The notes beneath the pieces were generated by a model that worked only from the letters and a program-made list of their open reading frames with translations, had not been told where the DNA came from and ran no database searches. From positions 1-54,822 of the forward strand of contig DUPC01000041.1 in NCBI GenBank assembly GCA_012838545.1: a stretch of 54,822 bases of DNA, given 5' to 3'. The translations under genes and the position numbers were made by a program. This DNA comes from Acholeplasmataceae bacterium (GTDB lineage Bacteria; Bacillota_I; Bacilli_A; ML615J-28; CAG-313). Shown one piece after another: positions 3,523 to 11,252 of the stretch (positions are counted from its first letter, which is position 1; each line of letters opens with the position of its first letter).

Positions 3523-3663
3523 CTACCAGCGCACTGCGGTACCGATGATGACTAAAAGAATGAACAAGACTAAAATTAAGGCGTAACCGTAACCACCATA
3601 ATTTCCAAATCCACATGGGCTAACTGGTTGGCAACATCCATATCCATAGTTAGGTTGATACAT
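3523..3663 (-). CDS. YjcZ-family small spore/membrane peptide
   Basis: A 46-residue ORF. The Gly/Tyr/Cys-rich N-terminus (residues 5-26) is followed by one hydrophobic helix (about 28-44) ending in Arg-Trp. The string GGYGYALILVLFILLVIIG is the hallmark of the YjcZ sporulation peptide family of Bacilli. The start is supported by a strong AGGAGGGG just upstream. A CATACTATA box on the minus strand about 30 nt further upstream matches the sporulation sigma-K -10 consensus CATANNNTA, but I see no good -35. Its presence implies a sporulating organism. The exact role of the family is unknown. Confidence 0.85.
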   Translation of the reverse strand: MYQPNYGYGCCQPVSPCGFGNYGGYGYALILVLFILLVIIGTAVRW

Positions 3664-3757: not shown

Positions 3758-4045
3758 TTAAAGCATCCGGTCAAACTCAGCTGCAACCTCGCCCCTGATT
3801 CCCAAATAGTTCTCTAAGCGCACCACGCGCTTTAACAATTCGCTGATTTGCCGTTTTTGTTCATTGATTTCCGTTTGCAATCTTTCAATCTCGTAATTAG
3901 GCATCATTTCTTCCCCCATCCACGGAGTTTGTCCCATTGACATCATCGGCTGCATTCCCTGAGGCATCATTGGTTGCATTCCCTGAGGCATCATCGGTTG
4001 GCCACTGAAACCAAATGGCATTTGGCGTTTTTTTCGGTTAAACAT
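3758..4045 (-). CDS. Met/Gln/Pro-rich coiled-coil protein, possible spore coat component
   Basis: A 95-residue protein. A basic start (residues 3-7) leads into a low-complexity segment with tandem MMPQGMQP repeats (about 18-36), then an amphipathic coiled-coil segment (about 50-80, ERLQTEINEQKRQ). I do not recognise a named family. It lies between the YjcZ-like gene and divergent ylbD, and a sigma-K-type promoter sits upstream, so a role in the spore coat is plausible but inferred. Such low-complexity Met/Gln/Pro proteins are common among coat proteins. Confidence 0.65.
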   Translation of the reverse strand: MFNRKKRQMPFGFSGQPMMPQGMQPMMPQGMQPMMSMGQTPWMGEEMMPNYEIERLQTEINEQKRQISELLKRVVRLENYLGIRGEVAAEFDRML

Positions 4046-4522: not shown

Positions 4523-4746
4523 TGGATGCAAGTATTTTGAAGAAAATTTATGCAAATGAGTTGTATTTACGCTATCTTCGTTATAACCCTAAGTGGTATT
4601 TAATCCTCAATGAAAATCCCGGTGCCTACAAAGAGTTTGAACAAACGGTGAAAATTGCCACCAAACAAACCGCAAGCGACAAAATCGATAATTTTCGCAG
4701 ACAAGTGGATTTCATAAACGGAGTCATTCGTTACTTAAATAGTTAA
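4522..4746 (+). CDS. ylbE: YlbE-like family protein
   Basis: A 74-residue protein starting at the ATG that overlaps the ylbD stop (TAATG). It has the pattern of YlbE-like proteins: LRYNPKWYLILNENPGAYKEFEQ followed by a polar helical tail. The adjacency to ylbD is conserved in Bacillus. Its function is unknown. A perfect 13-bp palindrome right after the stop may terminate the pair. Confidence 0.75.
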   Translation: MDASILKKIYANELYLRYLRYNPKWYLILNENPGAYKEFEQTVKIATKQTASDKIDNFRRQVDFINGVIRYLNS

Positions 4747-4792
4747 CTGTCAAGTAAAATTACTTGACAGTTTGTTTATTTTAAGGTATAAT
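4745..4792 (+). promoter_or_regulatory. terminator palindrome overlapping the rpsP promoter
   Basis: A perfect 13-bp inverted repeat (4745-4757 and 4760-4772, AACTGTCAAGTAA) is followed by a T-rich tail and acts as a likely ylbE terminator. Its right arm contains TTGACA (4764-4769), which with TATAAT (4787-4792) and a 17-bp spacer forms a consensus sigma-A promoter for rpsP. One DNA element thus appears to end one transcript and start the next. Confidence 0.75.
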
Positions 4793-4820: not shown

Positions 4821-5087
4821 ATGGCAGTAAAATTAAGATCACAACGTTTTGGTTCTAAGAAAAATCCTTTTTATCGGATAGTTGCGGCGGACTCAAGAAG
4901 CCCACGGGATGGACGGTTTATTGAGATTGTCGGTACATATAATCCTTTAACGGATCCTGCCCAAGTCAAATTTGATGAAGAAAAAGTATTGGCATGGTTG
5001 GAAAAAGGCGCAAAACCTACTGATACCGTCCGTTCACTTCTTGTTAAAGAAGGAATTATCGCCAAATTTGCTGAGAGCAAAAAGTAA
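4821..5087 (+). CDS. rpsP: 30S ribosomal protein bS16
   Basis: A component of the small ribosomal subunit. The protein is 88 residues, the standard length, with the typical start [20 protein letters not shown] and the [14 protein letters not shown] region. The ATG at 4821 was chosen because AAGGAGGT lies 7 nt upstream; an upstream in-frame ATG at 4791 lies inside the -10 box and cannot be used. It is followed 11 bp later by khpA, the usual Firmicutes arrangement. Confidence 0.97.
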
Positions 5088-5098
5088 GGCGGTATCCG

Positions 5099-5359
5099 AT
5101 GGGTAAAATTAATTATGAACAATTGGTGTCAGAATTAATTAAACCGCTCGTTACGCATCCCGAAGATGTGGTTGTAAAAGAACAATTGCGTTCCGCCAAC
5201 CAAGTGCATGTAGAAGTAACAGTACATTCCGATGATGTCGGTCGCATTATCGGCAAAAAAGGTCGCGTGATAAATGCAGTGCGGACTATTGCGCATGCCG
5301 CCGCAACCCGCGATAAAATGCAACTGGAAATTAGTTTGACATCAGAAAACGAAGAATAA
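5099..5359 (+). CDS. khpA: KhpA (YlqC) RNA-binding KH-domain protein
   Basis: A small single-KH-domain protein of 86 residues. The RNA-binding GxxG loop is visible as IIGKKGRVI. In Firmicutes it pairs with KhpB/Jag and affects cell elongation and mRNA handling. The usual order is rpsP-khpA-rimM-trmD. Here the unit is cut off by a terminator right after the khpA stop and a metal-resistance cassette follows instead of rimM. Confidence 0.93.
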   Translation: MGKINYEQLVSELIKPLVTHPEDVVVKEQLRSANQVHVEVTVHSDDVGRIIGKKGRVINAVRTIAHAAATRDKMQLEISLTSENEE

Positions 5360-5390
5360 GGACATTGCCAAAAGGGCAGTGCCTTTTTTT
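5358..5390 (+). terminator. rho-independent terminator after khpA
   Basis: Arms 5358-5369 and 5375-5385 (AAGGACATTGCC/GGCAGTGCCTT, with one bulge and one G-T pair), followed by a run of seven T. It separates rpsP-khpA from the arsR-ATPase-rimM-trmD unit. Confidence 0.85.
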
Positions 5391-5503
5391 CTTTTTTTGT
5401 TACCTTTCTTGACTTTTATTGCCAGAAAATAGGATGATATTCTAAAAAATAATGTCTTTTTTCGTTTTTTTAGAAAACCAAAGCATAATTCTTTCTATAT
5501 TAT

Positions 5504-5532
5504 TTGACAAGCAAAAAGGAAAAGCGTATAAT
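5504..5532 (+). promoter_or_regulatory. consensus sigma-A promoter of the arsR-ATPase-rimM-trmD operon
   Basis: TTGACA (5504-5509), a 17-bp spacer and TATAAT (5527-5532). Transcription should start near 5539, inside the inverted repeat at 5536-5561. Confidence 0.9.
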
Positions 5533-5535
5533 ACT

Positions 5536-5561
5536 TATGAATAAATGTTCATATATTCATA
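5536..5561. promoter_or_regulatory. putative ArsR/SmtB-type operator
   Basis: A perfect 8-bp inverted repeat, TATGAATA, 10-nt gap, TATTCATA. It sits at the predicted transcript start and just upstream of the ArsR-type gene. Metal-sensing ArsR/SmtB repressors bind AT-rich dyads of this kind at the same position, so autoregulation is likely. Confidence 0.75.
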
Positions 5562-5583
5562 TATAATAATAATGAGGTTTTTT

Positions 5584-5868
5584 ATGGAGTATAGCAGAGA
5601 AATCACTAAGTTATCGCAGATGTTTGCCATTCTCGGGGAAGAATCGCGTTTAGCGATTGTGATGTTTTTAATGAATAAAGAATCCAGCGTCAGCGAATTG
5701 ACTGAAAGGTTGCAAATGACCCAATCCGCTGTTTCGCATCAATTGCGTATTTTACGTGACACCCAAATCGTCAAAAAGAATAAAAAAGGACGCCACGTTT
5801 ACTATAGCATTAATGATGAACATGTTCAGACTATTGTCGAATCCGGACTTAAACACATGTTACATTAG
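5584..5868 (+). CDS. ArsR/SmtB-family metal-responsive repressor
   Basis: A 94-residue winged-helix repressor that probably leaves its operator when Zn, Cd or Pb binds. The recognition helix region is SVSELTERLQMTQSAVSHQLRILRDTQIV, followed by the wing KKGRHVYYSIND. The C-terminal helix (DEHVQTIVESGLKHMLH) carries Asp and His residues in the position of the alpha-5 metal site of SmtB/CzrA. There is no ELCVCDL motif (alpha-3 Cys site), so a Zn-type alpha-5 sensor is more likely. The ATG at 5584 is chosen over upstream in-frame starts that fall inside the operator. The gap to the ATPase gene is 8 bp. Confidence 0.88.
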   Translation: MEYSREITKLSQMFAILGEESRLAIVMFLMNKESSVSELTERLQMTQSAVSHQLRILRDTQIVKKNKKGRHVYYSINDEHVQTIVESGLKHMLH

Positions 5869-5876
5869 GGGGCCAC

Positions 5877-8360
5877 ATGGAAAAAGTTAATAAGAGTTAC
5901 CAAATAATTAACGTTAAAAGCAAAAAGAATTATAATCGCATTTTAGGCGAACTTCGAAAAATCAAAGAACTTTCGGATATTAATTTAAATAAAGATCAAC
6001 ATATGCTTCATGTCGGTTTAAAGCCGACGGAAGAAACAAGTATATCCCAAATTGAAGCCAAAATTCAAAAAGCGCTTCAACGTTACGAAAAAACCGCCAA
6101 TATCGAGGAATTTGAAGTAAAAGAATCTGTGCGGAAGGTTTTAATCTTAAAAGGCATCGATTGTGGGCACTGTGCAACGCGCATTGAAAATTTGGCCAAA
6201 AAAACTTTCAGTTTCGAAAAGCTGGTAGTGGATTTTGCCACTGAGCGCTTTATCATCGAAACCACTGATTTGGAACTGGGGGAAAACATATTACCTGAAG
6301 TTTCCCGATTGGTTCATAAGATTGACCCCCATATTCAAGTTCTTGACAGTAAAACCAAAAAACGGGTTTTTGCGGAAGAAGTTTATAAAATCAAAAAGAG
6401 CGATATCACCTTATTTTTAATCGGTATCGGTTTTTTGTTGGTTTCCTTTTTGTATTTGCCAAAATGGCAGATTAACGGTATCAATCTATTTGCCATGCTT
6501 AAACTTTTCTTTAAAGGCCAAGAATATGAGTTAAGTACTTATTCGATAATTACCTTACTTCTTGCCTTCTTGTTTATCGGCAATAAAGTAATTCTCCAAT
6601 TCATCCGAAATCTTTTCACCGGAAGAATTTTTGATGAAAATTTCCTCATGACCACCGCCAGCATCGGCGCCATCTTTACCCATCATAACATTGAAGCTGT
6701 TATGGTAATGATGTTTTATCAAATTGGTTCGTTCCTTCAACAGCGGGCGGTCAATCACTCCCGTAAATCGATTACCGAACTTTTGAGTTTTGAAGCAACC
6801 ACCGCCAAACTCAAACTTGGCGCGGAAGTCACCGAAGTGGAAGTCGAAAGCGTCTTACCGGGCGATATTATTTTGGTCAAAACCGGGGAAATGATTCCGC
6901 TTGACGGCGTCATCGTCGATGGTAAAACTTATCTTGACACCAAAGCTTTAACCGGTGAAAGTTTAAACAGAAGCGCCAAACCGGGCAGTGAAGTCCTGTC
7001 CGGCATGATTAACATGGGTGGCGTAATCGAAGTTAAAGTAACTAAGGCAAGCACCGAATCGACGATGTCCAAAATCATTGAAATGGTCGAAAATGCCTCA
7101 ACCAAAAAAGCCAAATCGGAAGAGTTCATTTCCAAGTTTGCCCGTTATTATACTCCGATTGTCAGCGCTTTGGCAATATTGATTGCCATTTTTCCTTTAA
7201 TTGTTAAAATCTTTGATTCCAGCTCCAGTTTGACCTTAAGCGATTCTGTTTACCGGGCGATGATTTTTCTCGTAATTTCTTGTCCATGCGCTTTGGTCAT
7301 TTCGATACCGTTATCGTTTTTTGCGGGGATTGGGATTGCCAGTAAGCGCGGTATCCTAATAAAGGGCAGCAACTACTTAGAAGCTTTAAATAATGTCGAA
7401 CAAGTTGTGTTCGATAAAACCGGAACCTTAACCAAAGGCGAATTCGGTATTAAAGAGGTTGTTCCGCTGAACCCGAGCACCACTGCCGAAGAATTACACC
7501 GGCTGGTGGCTTACGGTGAATATTACTCTACCCATCCAATCGGGATTTCCATCGTCGAAGAATATGGCAGAGACCGAATATTCCCAGAAATCATCGCCGA
7601 ATTTACCGAATACAGTGGCCGTGGTTTAAAAGCAACCATCAACGGTGCCAAGATCCTAGTGGGTAATTCGCGCTTAATGAAAGAAAACAAATTTGACGTA
7701 CCAAAAACCGATAAACCGGGCATGATCTTGCATGTAACCAAAGAACGCATATATTTGGGTTATGTTGTGGTAGGGGATGTTATCCGCGACGAAGCGGTTG
7801 ACACTATCCGCAGTCTCAAAAAACGCGGCGTAAAAAGGGTCCATCTTTTGACGGGTGATGCCAAGAGTGTGGCCGAAAGCGTAGCTAACGCATTGGATAT
7901 TGACGATGTTTATTCGGAACTTTTACCAAATGAAAAAGTCGAAAAACTAAATGAAATACGCGCGCATAATTCATCGCCAAAAAGCAAAACCATTTATATT
8001 GGGGACGGTATCAACGATGCGCCGGTTATCAGTTCCGCCGATGTCGGCATTGCCATGGGGGCAACGGGAAGTGATGCGGCGATAGCGATTGCGGATGTGG
8101 TAATCATGAGCGACAATCTGCAAAAGGTTGACGAAACAATAGAAATTGCCAAAAAAACCCGACGACTCGTGGTGCAAAATATTGCTTTATCCCTCGGCAT
8201 TAAAATTTTTGTTTTATTCCTGGGCTTAGTCGGTACAGTTACCATTTGGCTTGCCATTTTCTCGGATGTGGGCGTATCGCTCATTGCCATTTTAAATGCC
8301 ATGCGCGTTATGCGTTTATATAAACATCAAACCGAAACAGTCGAGGAACCAAAAGTATGA
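5877..8360 (+). CDS. P1B-type Zn/Cd/Pb-exporting ATPase
   Basis: An 827-residue heavy-metal efflux pump of the cytoplasmic membrane, of ZntA/CadA (P1B-2) type. An N-terminal HMA-like region without CxxC (about 1-75) precedes a true HMA with Cys96-GH-Cys99. The membrane core carries Cys469-Pro-Cys471. The phosphorylation site DKTGTLT starts at Asp513, the HP motif is in THPIG, and the hinge GDGIND is at about 709-714. The last-helix motif DVGVSLIAILNAMR is typical of the Zn/Cd subgroup rather than the copper subgroup. The stop codon overlaps the rimM start (ATGA), so translation is coupled. It is an unusual guest between khpA and rimM. It could be named cadA or zntA by other annotators. Confidence 0.93.
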   Translation: MEKVNKSYQIINVKSKKNYNRILGELRKIKELSDINLNKDQHMLHVGLKPTEETSISQIEAKIQKALQRYEKTANIEEFEVKESVRKVLILKGIDCGHCATRIENLAKKTFSFEKLVVDFATERFIIETTDLELGENILPEVSRLVHKIDPHIQVLDSKTKKRVFAEEVYKIKKSDITLFLIGIGFLLVSFLYLPKWQINGINLFAMLKLFFKGQEYELSTYSIITLLLAFLFIGNKVILQFIRNLFTGRIFDENFLMTTASIGAIFTHHNIEAVMVMMFYQIGSFLQQRAVNHSRKSITELLSFEATTAKLKLGAEVTEVEVESVLPGDIILVKTGEMIPLDGVIVDGKTYLDTKALTGESLNRSAKPGSEVLSGMINMGGVIEVKVTKASTESTMSKIIEMVENASTKKAKSEEFISKFARYYTPIVSALAILIAIFPLIVKIFDSSSSLTLSDSVYRAMIFLVISCPCALVISIPLSFFAGIGIASKRGILIKGSNYLEALNNVEQVVFDKTGTLTKGEFGIKEVVPLNPSTTAEELHRLVAYGEYYSTHPIGISIVEEYGRDRIFPEIIAEFTEYSGRGLKATINGAKILVGNSRLMKENKFDVPKTDKPGMILHVTKERIYLGYVVVGDVIRDEAVDTIRSLKKRGVKRVHLLTGDAKSVAESVANALDIDDVYSELLPNEKVEKLNEIRAHNSSPKSKTIYIGDGINDAPVISSADVGIAMGATGSDAAIAIADVVIMSDNLQKVDETIEIAKKTRRLVVQNIALSLGIKIFVLFLGLVGTVTIWLAIFSDVGVSLIAILNAMRVMRLYKHQTETVEEPKV

Positions 8361-8857
8361 ATTACATCAAGGTAGGTACTATTTCCAAACCCCTGGGGTT
8401 AAAAGGCGAACTTAAAGTAGCAACTGACAGCGACTTTGTGACCGAACGTTTTGCCAAAGGAAATGTTTTATTCGGAAATTTCCCCAGTGGGATGAAAAAA
8501 ATAACCATTTCTTCCTTTCGACTCCATCAAGGTAAACCCGTTATTACCGTTGACGATTTGTTTGATATCAATTTAATTCAAGATTATCTGGGAATCGATT
8601 TATTTGTCGATCAAGATACTTTAAAGCCGCTAAAGGAAGACGAATTTTATCTCCATGAATTGCTGGGCAAAAGAGTGGAAAATACCGAAGGCGAACTTTT
8701 AGGAACAGTAACGGACGTAATCTTTTTGCCTTCTTCGCCGGTATTGGAAGTAAAGGATGGAGAAAACGAAAGAATCTTAATTCCGTTTGTCAATGCTTTT
8801 ATCGCAAAAATTGACAAAGACTTAATTATTATTAATGAAATCGAGGGACTAAGATGA
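8357..8857 (+). CDS. rimM: Ribosome maturation factor RimM
   Basis: Binds bS19 and helps mature the 30S head. A protein of 166 residues with the typical RimM N-terminal domain (KVGTISKPLGLKGELKV) and a C-terminal PRC-barrel (about 90-166, FYLHELLGKRV...LIPFVNAFI). The ATG overlaps the ATPase stop and the rimM stop overlaps the trmD start. With a terminator after khpA, the only promoter I can see for this gene is the metal-regulated one at 5504. Confidence 0.95.
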   Translation: MNYIKVGTISKPLGLKGELKVATDSDFVTERFAKGNVLFGNFPSGMKKITISSFRLHQGKPVITVDDLFDINLIQDYLGIDLFVDQDTLKPLKEDEFYLHELLGKRVENTEGELLGTVTDVIFLPSSPVLEVKDGENERILIPFVNAFIAKIDKDLIIINEIEGLR

Positions 8858-9576
8858 TGCGCTTCACCATTTTGACTTTGTTTCCTGAAATGTTTGAAGG
8901 GGTTATCAACCAATCGATTATCAAACGAGCCCGGGAAAAAGGCTTAATTGAAATTAACCTCATTAACTACCGCGACTTTGCCACCAATAAGCACGGTCAA
9001 GTCGATGACTACGCCTATGGCGGAGGAGCCGGAATGGTAATCAGCGTGGAACCGATTCATCTTGCGCTGACATCGATTTCGGGCCTTGACAAAGCCAAAA
9101 AAATCTTGACTTCTGCTTCCGGCTATCCGTTAACCCAAAAGAAGTTAAACGAATTAAAAAATGAAGAACACCTTGTGATTGTTTGTGGACACTACGAAGG
9201 AATCGACAATCGGATTACCCATTATATCGACGAAGAAATATCAGTTGGCGATTATGTTTTGACCGGAGGAGAAATACCGGCGATGGTCCTTCTTGACGGC
9301 GTTACCAGACTCATTCCCGGGGTTATCAGCGAAGAATCGATTGAAAACGAATCTTTCTCCGATGAATTGTTGGAATACCCTCAATATACGCGCCCGCCGG
9401 TATATGACGGGCACGAGGTTCCGGAAATCTTGCTTTCGGGACACCATGCCAATATCAAAAAATGGCAACGCGCGGAAGCTTTAAAGAAAACCAAAAAAGT
9501 AAGACCGGACCTTTTGGAAAAAGCCGCTCTTACTCCGGAAGATTATGCTGTTTTAAGAGGTTGGGAAGAAAAATGA
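8854..9576 (+). CDS. trmD: tRNA (guanine37-N1)-methyltransferase
   Basis: Methylates G37 of tRNAs using S-adenosylmethionine, which prevents +1 frameshifting. It has 240 residues and a SPOUT trefoil-knot fold. Visible motifs are DDYAYGGGAGM, the SAM-binding knot region ISVGDYVLTGGEIPAM and the C-terminal RPxVY/HHANIKKWQR segment. Two adjacent ATGs (8854, 8857) are possible starts. It is coupled to rimM by ATGA overlap and to the downstream lipoprotein gene in the same way. rplS, its usual neighbour, lies separately at 11253. Confidence 0.97.
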   Translation: MMRFTILTLFPEMFEGVINQSIIKRAREKGLIEINLINYRDFATNKHGQVDDYAYGGGAGMVISVEPIHLALTSISGLDKAKKILTSASGYPLTQKKLNELKNEEHLVIVCGHYEGIDNRITHYIDEEISVGDYVLTGGEIPAMVLLDGVTRLIPGVISEESIENESFSDELLEYPQYTRPPVYDGHEVPEILLSGHHANIKKWQRAEALKKTKKVRPDLLEKAALTPEDYAVLRGWEEK

Positions 9577-10049
9577 AAAAAGTGCTTGTAGTTCTTGTTT
9601 TCCTATTAACCTTAACCGGTTGCACAAGAGTCAAAGGATATAACGAAGCAAATGTAAAAGACTTTGTCGATTTAATCATGGAATATGAAACCGGCAAAAA
9701 AAGCGGTGTAATATATATAGATTTGCGCCCTTTAGGAACCGAAGAAGGAAAAGAAGAGGGCACATATGCCAAAAGCCATATCCAAGGTTTTATCAATTAC
9801 AATGTTAAAAACGGAAGTGAAACCGAAATGGTAACTTGGCTAAAAGGCATGTACGATACCAAAACCGCCGTCATCTTGGTCGATAGCGACGGTACCGACG
9901 TTAAAACGGTTGCCAAGTGGTTGACCAATGCCGGTTACAAAAAAGTTTACTATTACGAAAAGGGTTTTTCTTCTTTGGAAGAAAAAGCAATCGATTTGCT
10001 CCATTTCGTCAGCGGGATAGAGGATTGCGGTTGCGGACCCGGGGAATAA
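9573..10049 (+). CDS. lipoprotein with degenerate rhodanese-like domain
   Basis: A 158-residue predicted lipoprotein. The signal peptide is followed by the lipobox LTGC with Cys17. The rest follows the rhodanese fold: an early IDLRP strand, KSHIQGFINY, then VILVDSDGTDVKTVAKWLTNAGYKKVYYYEKGF. The catalytic Cys expected in the strand-loop is replaced (VDSDG), so sulfur transfer is unlikely and a binding role is possible. The C-terminus CGCGPGE carries two close cysteines. The start at 9573 overlaps the trmD stop (ATGA); an earlier in-frame start would lie deep inside trmD. It ends the metal-resistance/trmD operon. Confidence 0.8.
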   Translation: MKKVLVVLVFLLTLTGCTRVKGYNEANVKDFVDLIMEYETGKKSGVIYIDLRPLGTEEGKEEGTYAKSHIQGFINYNVKNGSETEMVTWLKGMYDTKTAVILVDSDGTDVKTVAKWLTNAGYKKVYYYEKGFSSLEEKAIDLLHFVSGIEDCGCGPGE

Positions 10050-10055
10050 AAAAAG

Positions 10056-10093
10056 AAGCTTTAGTCTGTTCGATGGACTAAAGCTTTTTTTTA
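10056..10093. terminator. bidirectional rho-independent terminator
   Basis: A perfect 11-bp stem (10056-10066 with 10076-10086, AAGCTTTAGTC) with a 9-nt loop, A-rich before and eight T after. It ends the trmD operon on the plus strand and can serve cvfB on the minus strand. Confidence 0.92.
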
Positions 10094-10942: not shown

Positions 10943-11252
10943 AACAAAAACTCCTTATAAAGATATTATAACATTATTAACGGTTTTTTATTATGAATTG
11001 ACACTTTATTCATCCGTTGCTTTTTTTCCAGCAATAGTTTTTAAAAAAAGTTCAAACAAAAAGAAAAAAACATTTTATAAACACACCATTATCCAAAGAA
11101 ATATTGCTATATTATTTGAAAGTTGGGAGAGAATATGGTATAATAGTAAACGCTGTAAGAAATATGTGCTTACGGAATATTCCGCTACTATTGTCATGAT
11201 AGGTATGAATATCTTTTGAATATTTATTCAAAATAGAAAAAGGAGTGTTATT
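10943..11252 (+). promoter_or_regulatory. cvfB/rplS divergent intergenic region with rplS promoter and leader
   Basis: This 310-bp gap contains a strong promoter for rplS: TTGAAA (11116-11121), 17 bp, TATAAT (11139-11144). The leader of about 100 nt holds GTAAG/CTTAC arms (11155-11159 and 11169-11173) and the perfect palindrome CGGAATATTCCG (11173-11184). Firmicutes rplS genes often have an autoregulatory L19 leader; that assignment is tentative here because I could not compare it with a model. The left half is AT-rich with no gene seen. Confidence 0.65.

Follow-up and report, generated by a model that had tools for sequence, protein, structure and literature searches.

The window, by which we mean the whole stretch of 54,822 nucleotides analysed here, contains a metal-efflux module in which two genes serving translation are embedded. 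Downstream of rpsP and khpA, a terminator and a consensus promoter with an ArsR-type operator precede arsR, a putative zinc-type efflux ATPase, rimM and trmD (Table 1), all identified with Pfam and NCBIfam profiles. An earlier sequence-only reading had named these features and the order of these four genes, and both were borne out, with the dyad best read within the boundaries given in Table 1. The ATGA overlaps that it described from the ATPase onward are present at 8357-8360 (ATPase/rimM) and 8854-8857 (rimM/trmD), and a further one at 9573-9576 (trmD/lipoprotein) extends the unit by one gene beyond trmD; arsR and the ATPase are separated by 8 bp, without overlap. Only two promoters with a 12/12 match lie on the + strand between 3000 and 13000, one of them the promoter of this unit. 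The gene for TrmD is single-copy, with one match in the genome (G000).

Table 1. Features of the arsR-ATPase-rimM-trmD locus and its upstream neighbours (window coordinates).
Feature	Position	Strand	Evidence or remark
Promoter of rpsP-khpA, TTGACA-17-TATAAT	4764..4792	+	12/12 match; 3' of strong hairpin 4745-4772
rpsP (ribosomal protein S16)	4821..5087	+	TIGR00002 112 bits, PF00886
khpA (KH-domain RNA-binding protein)	5099..5359	+	PF13083 74.9 bits
Intrinsic terminator 3' of khpA	5358..5385	+	dG -14.5 kcal/mol, z -2.9; T-rich tail to ~5399
Promoter of arsR-ATPase-rimM-trmD-lipoprotein unit	5504..5532	+	TTGACA-17-TATAAT, 12/12 consensus
Predicted ArsR operator (SmtB/CzrA-type)	5537..5552	+	ATGAATA-AA-TGTTCAT, near expected transcription start
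arsR, ArsR/SmtB repressor	5584..5868	+	NF033788 92.6 bits; alignment with CzrA and SmtB
P1B-2 type Zn/Cd/Pb efflux ATPase (predicted)	5877..8360	+	TIGR01512 480 bits; aligned with 4umv
rimM (ribosome maturation factor)	8357..8857	+	TIGR02273 118 bits
trmD (tRNA m1G37 methyltransferase)	8854..9576	+	TIGR00088 308.6 bits
Rhodanese-like lipoprotein, last gene of the unit	9573..10049	+	PF00581 and LPAM_1
Terminator hairpin closing the unit	10050..10092	+	z -4.1

The usual bacterial trmD operon, found in E. coli, B. subtilis and others, has the order rpsP-khpA-rimM-trmD-rplS, and the window shares with it the rpsP-khpA and rimM-trmD orders. If a trmD operon is defined by adjacent khpA-rimM-trmD-rplS genes transcribed with rpsP, the window departs from it while keeping the rimM-trmD adjacency: khpA and rimM lie 3 kb apart, the operon being split by a terminator, by an operator-bearing promoter of metal type and by the two metal genes, and rplS is displaced from trmD by the lipoprotein gene and a cvfB-like gene of opposite orientation. 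The trmD operon of B. subtilis shares with the window both the terminator after khpA and an rplS with its own promoter (PMC10100781).

The repressor scores well above curated cut-offs (NF033788, 92.6 bits against a cut-off of 55; PF01022, 52.2 bits against 22), is the only PF01022 protein of the genome and aligns along its length with CzrA and SmtB. Its residues D78, H80, H91 and H94 align with the alpha5 ligands D84, H86, H97 and H100 of CzrA. The signature DxHx10Hx2(H/E) defines zinc-type alpha5 sensors (PMC8790569). Among the ArsRs of the 25 syntenic loci that carry the gene, 23 keep the alpha5 aspartate and first histidine. The two exceptions, in genomes G010 and G012, also have no operator, and in the genomes that are their sisters, G007 and G014, arsR itself is gone, a pattern that looks like regulator decay in progress. 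As a side observation, three loci of one genus (L067, L075 and L077, genus g2) keep the ArsR ligands with a cysteine replacing the last histidine, and have another dyad, around ATATCTA...TAGATAT, instead of the usual operator. A CadC-like sensor (alpha3N, Cd/Pb) was rejected for the window, whose ArsR lacks the cysteine pair of the CVC motif found in the ArsRs of G002 and G033.

The operator core, TGAATAAATGTTCA, lies at 5538-5551, and the dyad starts 5 nt after the -10 box. Because the 1.71-Mb genome has five matches to the general core pattern plus its TAT extension, the motif on its own is weak evidence; taken across relatives, it provides strong evidence for an operator. Of the 25 loci with arsR, 20 have the pattern TGAR-N6-YTCA in their promoter region, against 0.34 predicted by dinucleotide shuffling, and the 10 loci lacking arsR have none (Fisher p 1.6e-5 for the contrast, a value that overstates independence because the sequences are related). 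The pattern usually lies 9-17 nt past the first base of the TATAAT box. A promoter matching the consensus at 11-12 of 12 positions lies at the equivalent place in 13/25 arsR-bearing loci, window included. Two arsR-less loci, L084 and L099 (from G018 and G034), have dyad-like repeats between a 12/12 promoter and the start of the ATPase gene, that stretch of G018 containing TAAACATAGTTTA several times; these repeats are possibly the operator of another regulator.

The ATPase carries an N-terminal CxxC domain, CGHC at 96-99, CPC at 469-471, K776 in TM7, D797 in TM8 and DKTGT. Over 21 orthologues, C96/C99, C469-P470-C471, K776, D797 and DKTGT are invariant, and the class residues align with the solved zinc ATPase 4umv. 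By these residues the protein meets the criteria of the Zn/Cd/Pb P1B-2 class, and transport of such metals is predicted. Since the ArsR has alpha5 ligands and no thiolate pair, and the ATPase has the residues of this class, we predict that the operon is induced by zinc.

A further metal-related gene may close the unit. The lipoprotein ends in a CxC motif whose cysteines, C152 and C154, are invariant in 18 orthologues, while its rhodanese-like domain shows no conservation at the position normally held by the catalytic cysteine. Of 33 readable loci with the ATPase, 28 have the lipoprotein gene after trmD, as does 1 of 7 without the ATPase (p 7e-4, which overstates independence in the same way); this one locus is that of G002, whose congeners carry the ATPase. 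Outside the order, related rhodaneses match the 146-position model no further than position 141, the CxC tail being unseen there, and the literature that we searched contains no description of this protein. It is thus a candidate metal-handling partner of the ATPase or metal-binding surface protein, so that rimM-trmD are probably bracketed by metal genes.

The sequence-only reading had proposed comparison with relatives to date the insertion. We searched 60 relatives with TrmD and with the ATPase and annotated the fetched stretches. Of the order's 42 readable genomes, 35 have the ATPase directly 5' of rimM, and both families are represented: 14/15 genomes of the window's own family (window included) and 21/27 readable genomes of the other. 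No such arrangement was found in the class members fetched from outside the order. The 35 rimM-adjoining ATPases form one clade with a support of 100, which splits by family (14 + 21) and stands apart from every other sampled P1B ATPase. In a tree of concatenated RpsP, KhpA, RimM, TrmD and RplS, the order forms one group, with the seven genomes without a rimM-adjoining ATPase scattered inside it. One ATPase clade that divides by family marks a single insertion, older than the ancestor shared by the whole order and inherited vertically since, and the trees indicate that the ATPase was lost from its place before rimM at least four times.

Beyond the order, the arsR-ATPase pair is widespread in the class and further afield. 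In a wider set of 149 genomes of the class, the best out-of-order ATPases frequently have arsR as a neighbour and in no case rimM or trmD within 1.5 kb. A search of genome contigs with the ATPase alignment returned, among the matches listed, only distant, non-syntenic relatives, and in none of the out-of-order loci examined among these matches does rimM or trmD lie beside an arsR-ATPase pair. By these comparisons the pair is a common module, and the special feature is that it has been joined to rimM-trmD. The ATPase of G033, which falls outside the clade and has no rimM found beside it, was left out of all counts. G002, the one member of the window's family without a rimM-adjoining ATPase, has another arsR-ATPase pair just downstream of rplS (L068:8007-10538), with a CVC-bearing, CadC-like ArsR and an ATPase of a different clade.

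Do rimM and trmD have a promoter of their own? A strong constitutive promoter late in the ATPase gene had been named as something that could overturn the sequence-only reading, and a consensus scan of the last 1.1 kb, which would miss promoters within that gene that are weak or not of sigma-A type, finds no + strand site of at least 9/12 between 7211 and rimM; in the window, the 700 bp before rimM likewise hold no promoter-like site at or above the threshold. Across the 35 loci, six promoter-like sites were seen 0-600 bp before rimM versus 10.0 expected from synonymous-codon shuffles. Most of these few come from G005, G019, G026 and G031, where a promoter-like site, accompanied in three of the four by a hairpin, lies between the ATPase gene and rimM; separate transcription of rimM has thus probably evolved about three times. 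Of the 35 loci, 16 have the complete set seen in the window, in which the sensor keeps its ligands, the operator is present and rimM lacks a promoter of its own.

The anatomy favours metal-inducible co-expression of rimM-trmD. We consider it probable, though by some distance short of certain, that this is a zinc-inducible efflux operon that has enclosed rimM-trmD since before the ancestor of the order, and in which RimM and TrmD are boosted by metal rather than dependent on it. From the arrangement we infer the metal response, the co-transcription and the sources of basal expression as follows. At low zinc, an ArsR dimer on the operator just 3' of the -10 box would block the promoter. At high zinc (or Co/Cd), metal at the alpha5 sites would release ArsR, and a single transcript encoding the efflux pump, RimM, TrmD and the lipoprotein would rise. 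The sequence-only reading had called the promoter 'metal-repressed'; this should read 'repressed unless metal is present', because repression by ArsR holds while metal is scarce and is relieved by metal.

Formation of m1G37 is essential (PMC6335274). But what would supply RimM and TrmD at low zinc? Most likely, promoter leak would combine with transcripts from the strong rpsP promoter, a candidate source, that in part read through the khpA terminator. We take ylqC of B. subtilis to be the counterpart of khpA. In that species a terminator lies downstream of ylqC, and some transcripts stop there while others continue through rimM and trmD (PMC10100781). The parallel is inexact, since the operon of B. 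subtilis is longer and its readthrough transcripts originate from promoters that precede rpsP (PMC10100781). With two basal sources likely, leak from a 12/12 promoter and khpA-terminator readthrough, boosting by metal is favoured over dependence on it; the suggestion that essential tRNA methylation would depend on metal is unsupported as stated, both sources being plausible. A strongly leaky khpA terminator may leave the operon hardly regulated at rimM-trmD.

Several other explanations deserve weighing. A recent placement of rimM-trmD, as the sequence-only reading implied, or an assembly artefact, which it had allowed for, would be in keeping with the usual bacterial gene order and with the absence of the ATPase before rimM from seven order genomes and from the other class members examined; however, 34 independent relatives with equivalent junctions exclude the artefact, and together with the family-split, fully supported ATPase clade they refute this explanation, to which we attach next to no credence. 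Alternatively, the linkage could be incidental, with rimM-trmD transcribed mainly through rpsP-khpA readthrough or cryptic internal promoters, zinc appreciably changing the efflux genes only, and the gene order a frozen accident. The pairing in B. subtilis of a transcript ending after ylqC with longer ones that include rimM (PMC10100781) speaks for this, as do the 12/12 promoter of rpsP and the persistence of the linkage through about seven changes in arsR presence on the ATPase tree. Yet most relatives have a terminator at the equivalent place after khpA and a fresh consensus promoter before the metal genes, and the ATPase-rimM junctions overlap or have gaps of at most 18 bp in 32/35 loci, with a promoter signal not above background. 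On balance, we find an incidental linkage unlikely.

At the other extreme, the coupling could be adaptive, zinc acting through ArsR to set RimM and TrmD levels, and with them 30S maturation and m1G37-dependent decoding, alongside zinc export. The coupling has lasted through the diversification of two families, and the 16 loci with the complete set would fit such gating. A precedent is the Salmonella metal-transport gene mgtA, whose Mg2+ control through TrmD and m1G37 feedback likewise ties m1G37 synthesis to metal homeostasis (PMC6335274); there, the metal works through a leader ORF and the activity of TrmD (PMC6335274), whereas in the window it is trmD transcription that would respond, and to zinc. 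Against gating stand the many escapes: loss of arsR at 10 of the 35 loci, of its ligands at 2, a new rimM promoter at 4 and loss of the ATPase in 7 genomes. We also know of no zinc requirement of TrmD or RimM, and we judge adaptive gating to be decidedly improbable. Regulator loss and the gain of a separate rimM promoter have, by these counts, occurred repeatedly; since arsR was lost at 10/35 loci and a rimM promoter gained in four, coupling to the sensor is not indispensable, also in the metal-boosted operon that we prefer.

How does this operon compare with known ones? Like the arsR/smtB-type efflux operons (czrA, smtB/ziaR, cadC-cadA, arsR-zntA), it has an autoregulated alpha5-zinc ArsR, here predicted, an operator at the promoter and a P1B-2 ATPase directly 3' of arsR; unlike them, it has rimM, trmD and a CxC lipoprotein gene in the same overlapping unit. 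The literature that we searched contains no report of trmD-rimM inside a metal-regulated operon. As an instance of operon capture, an essential gene standing behind a metal-sensing promoter for as long as an order has existed is unusual. The relatives amount to a natural experiment, some having sensor and operator intact and others showing the loss of arsR or of its ligands, the gain of a separate rimM promoter or the removal of the ATPase. Comparing them could reveal in what ways an essential gene copes with a foreign regulator or gets free of it, and whether translation is affected by zinc status.

Finally, the window yielded some minor observations. No RNA family reaches its Rfam gathering score anywhere in the window; a probable L19 leader RNA lies before rplS at 11177-11212 (RF00556, 24.1 bits, gathering score 36, E 0.1), and its conserved TTCCGCTACTATT core is also present 5' of rplS in the relatives G020 and G031. 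On the minus strand, the product of an ORF at 3758-4045 has a repeat rich in Met, Gln and Pro (GMQPMMPQ), and a short coding-looking stretch nearby, at ~3560-3660, is rich in Tyr, Gly and Cys; their products are possibly small coat-like proteins.
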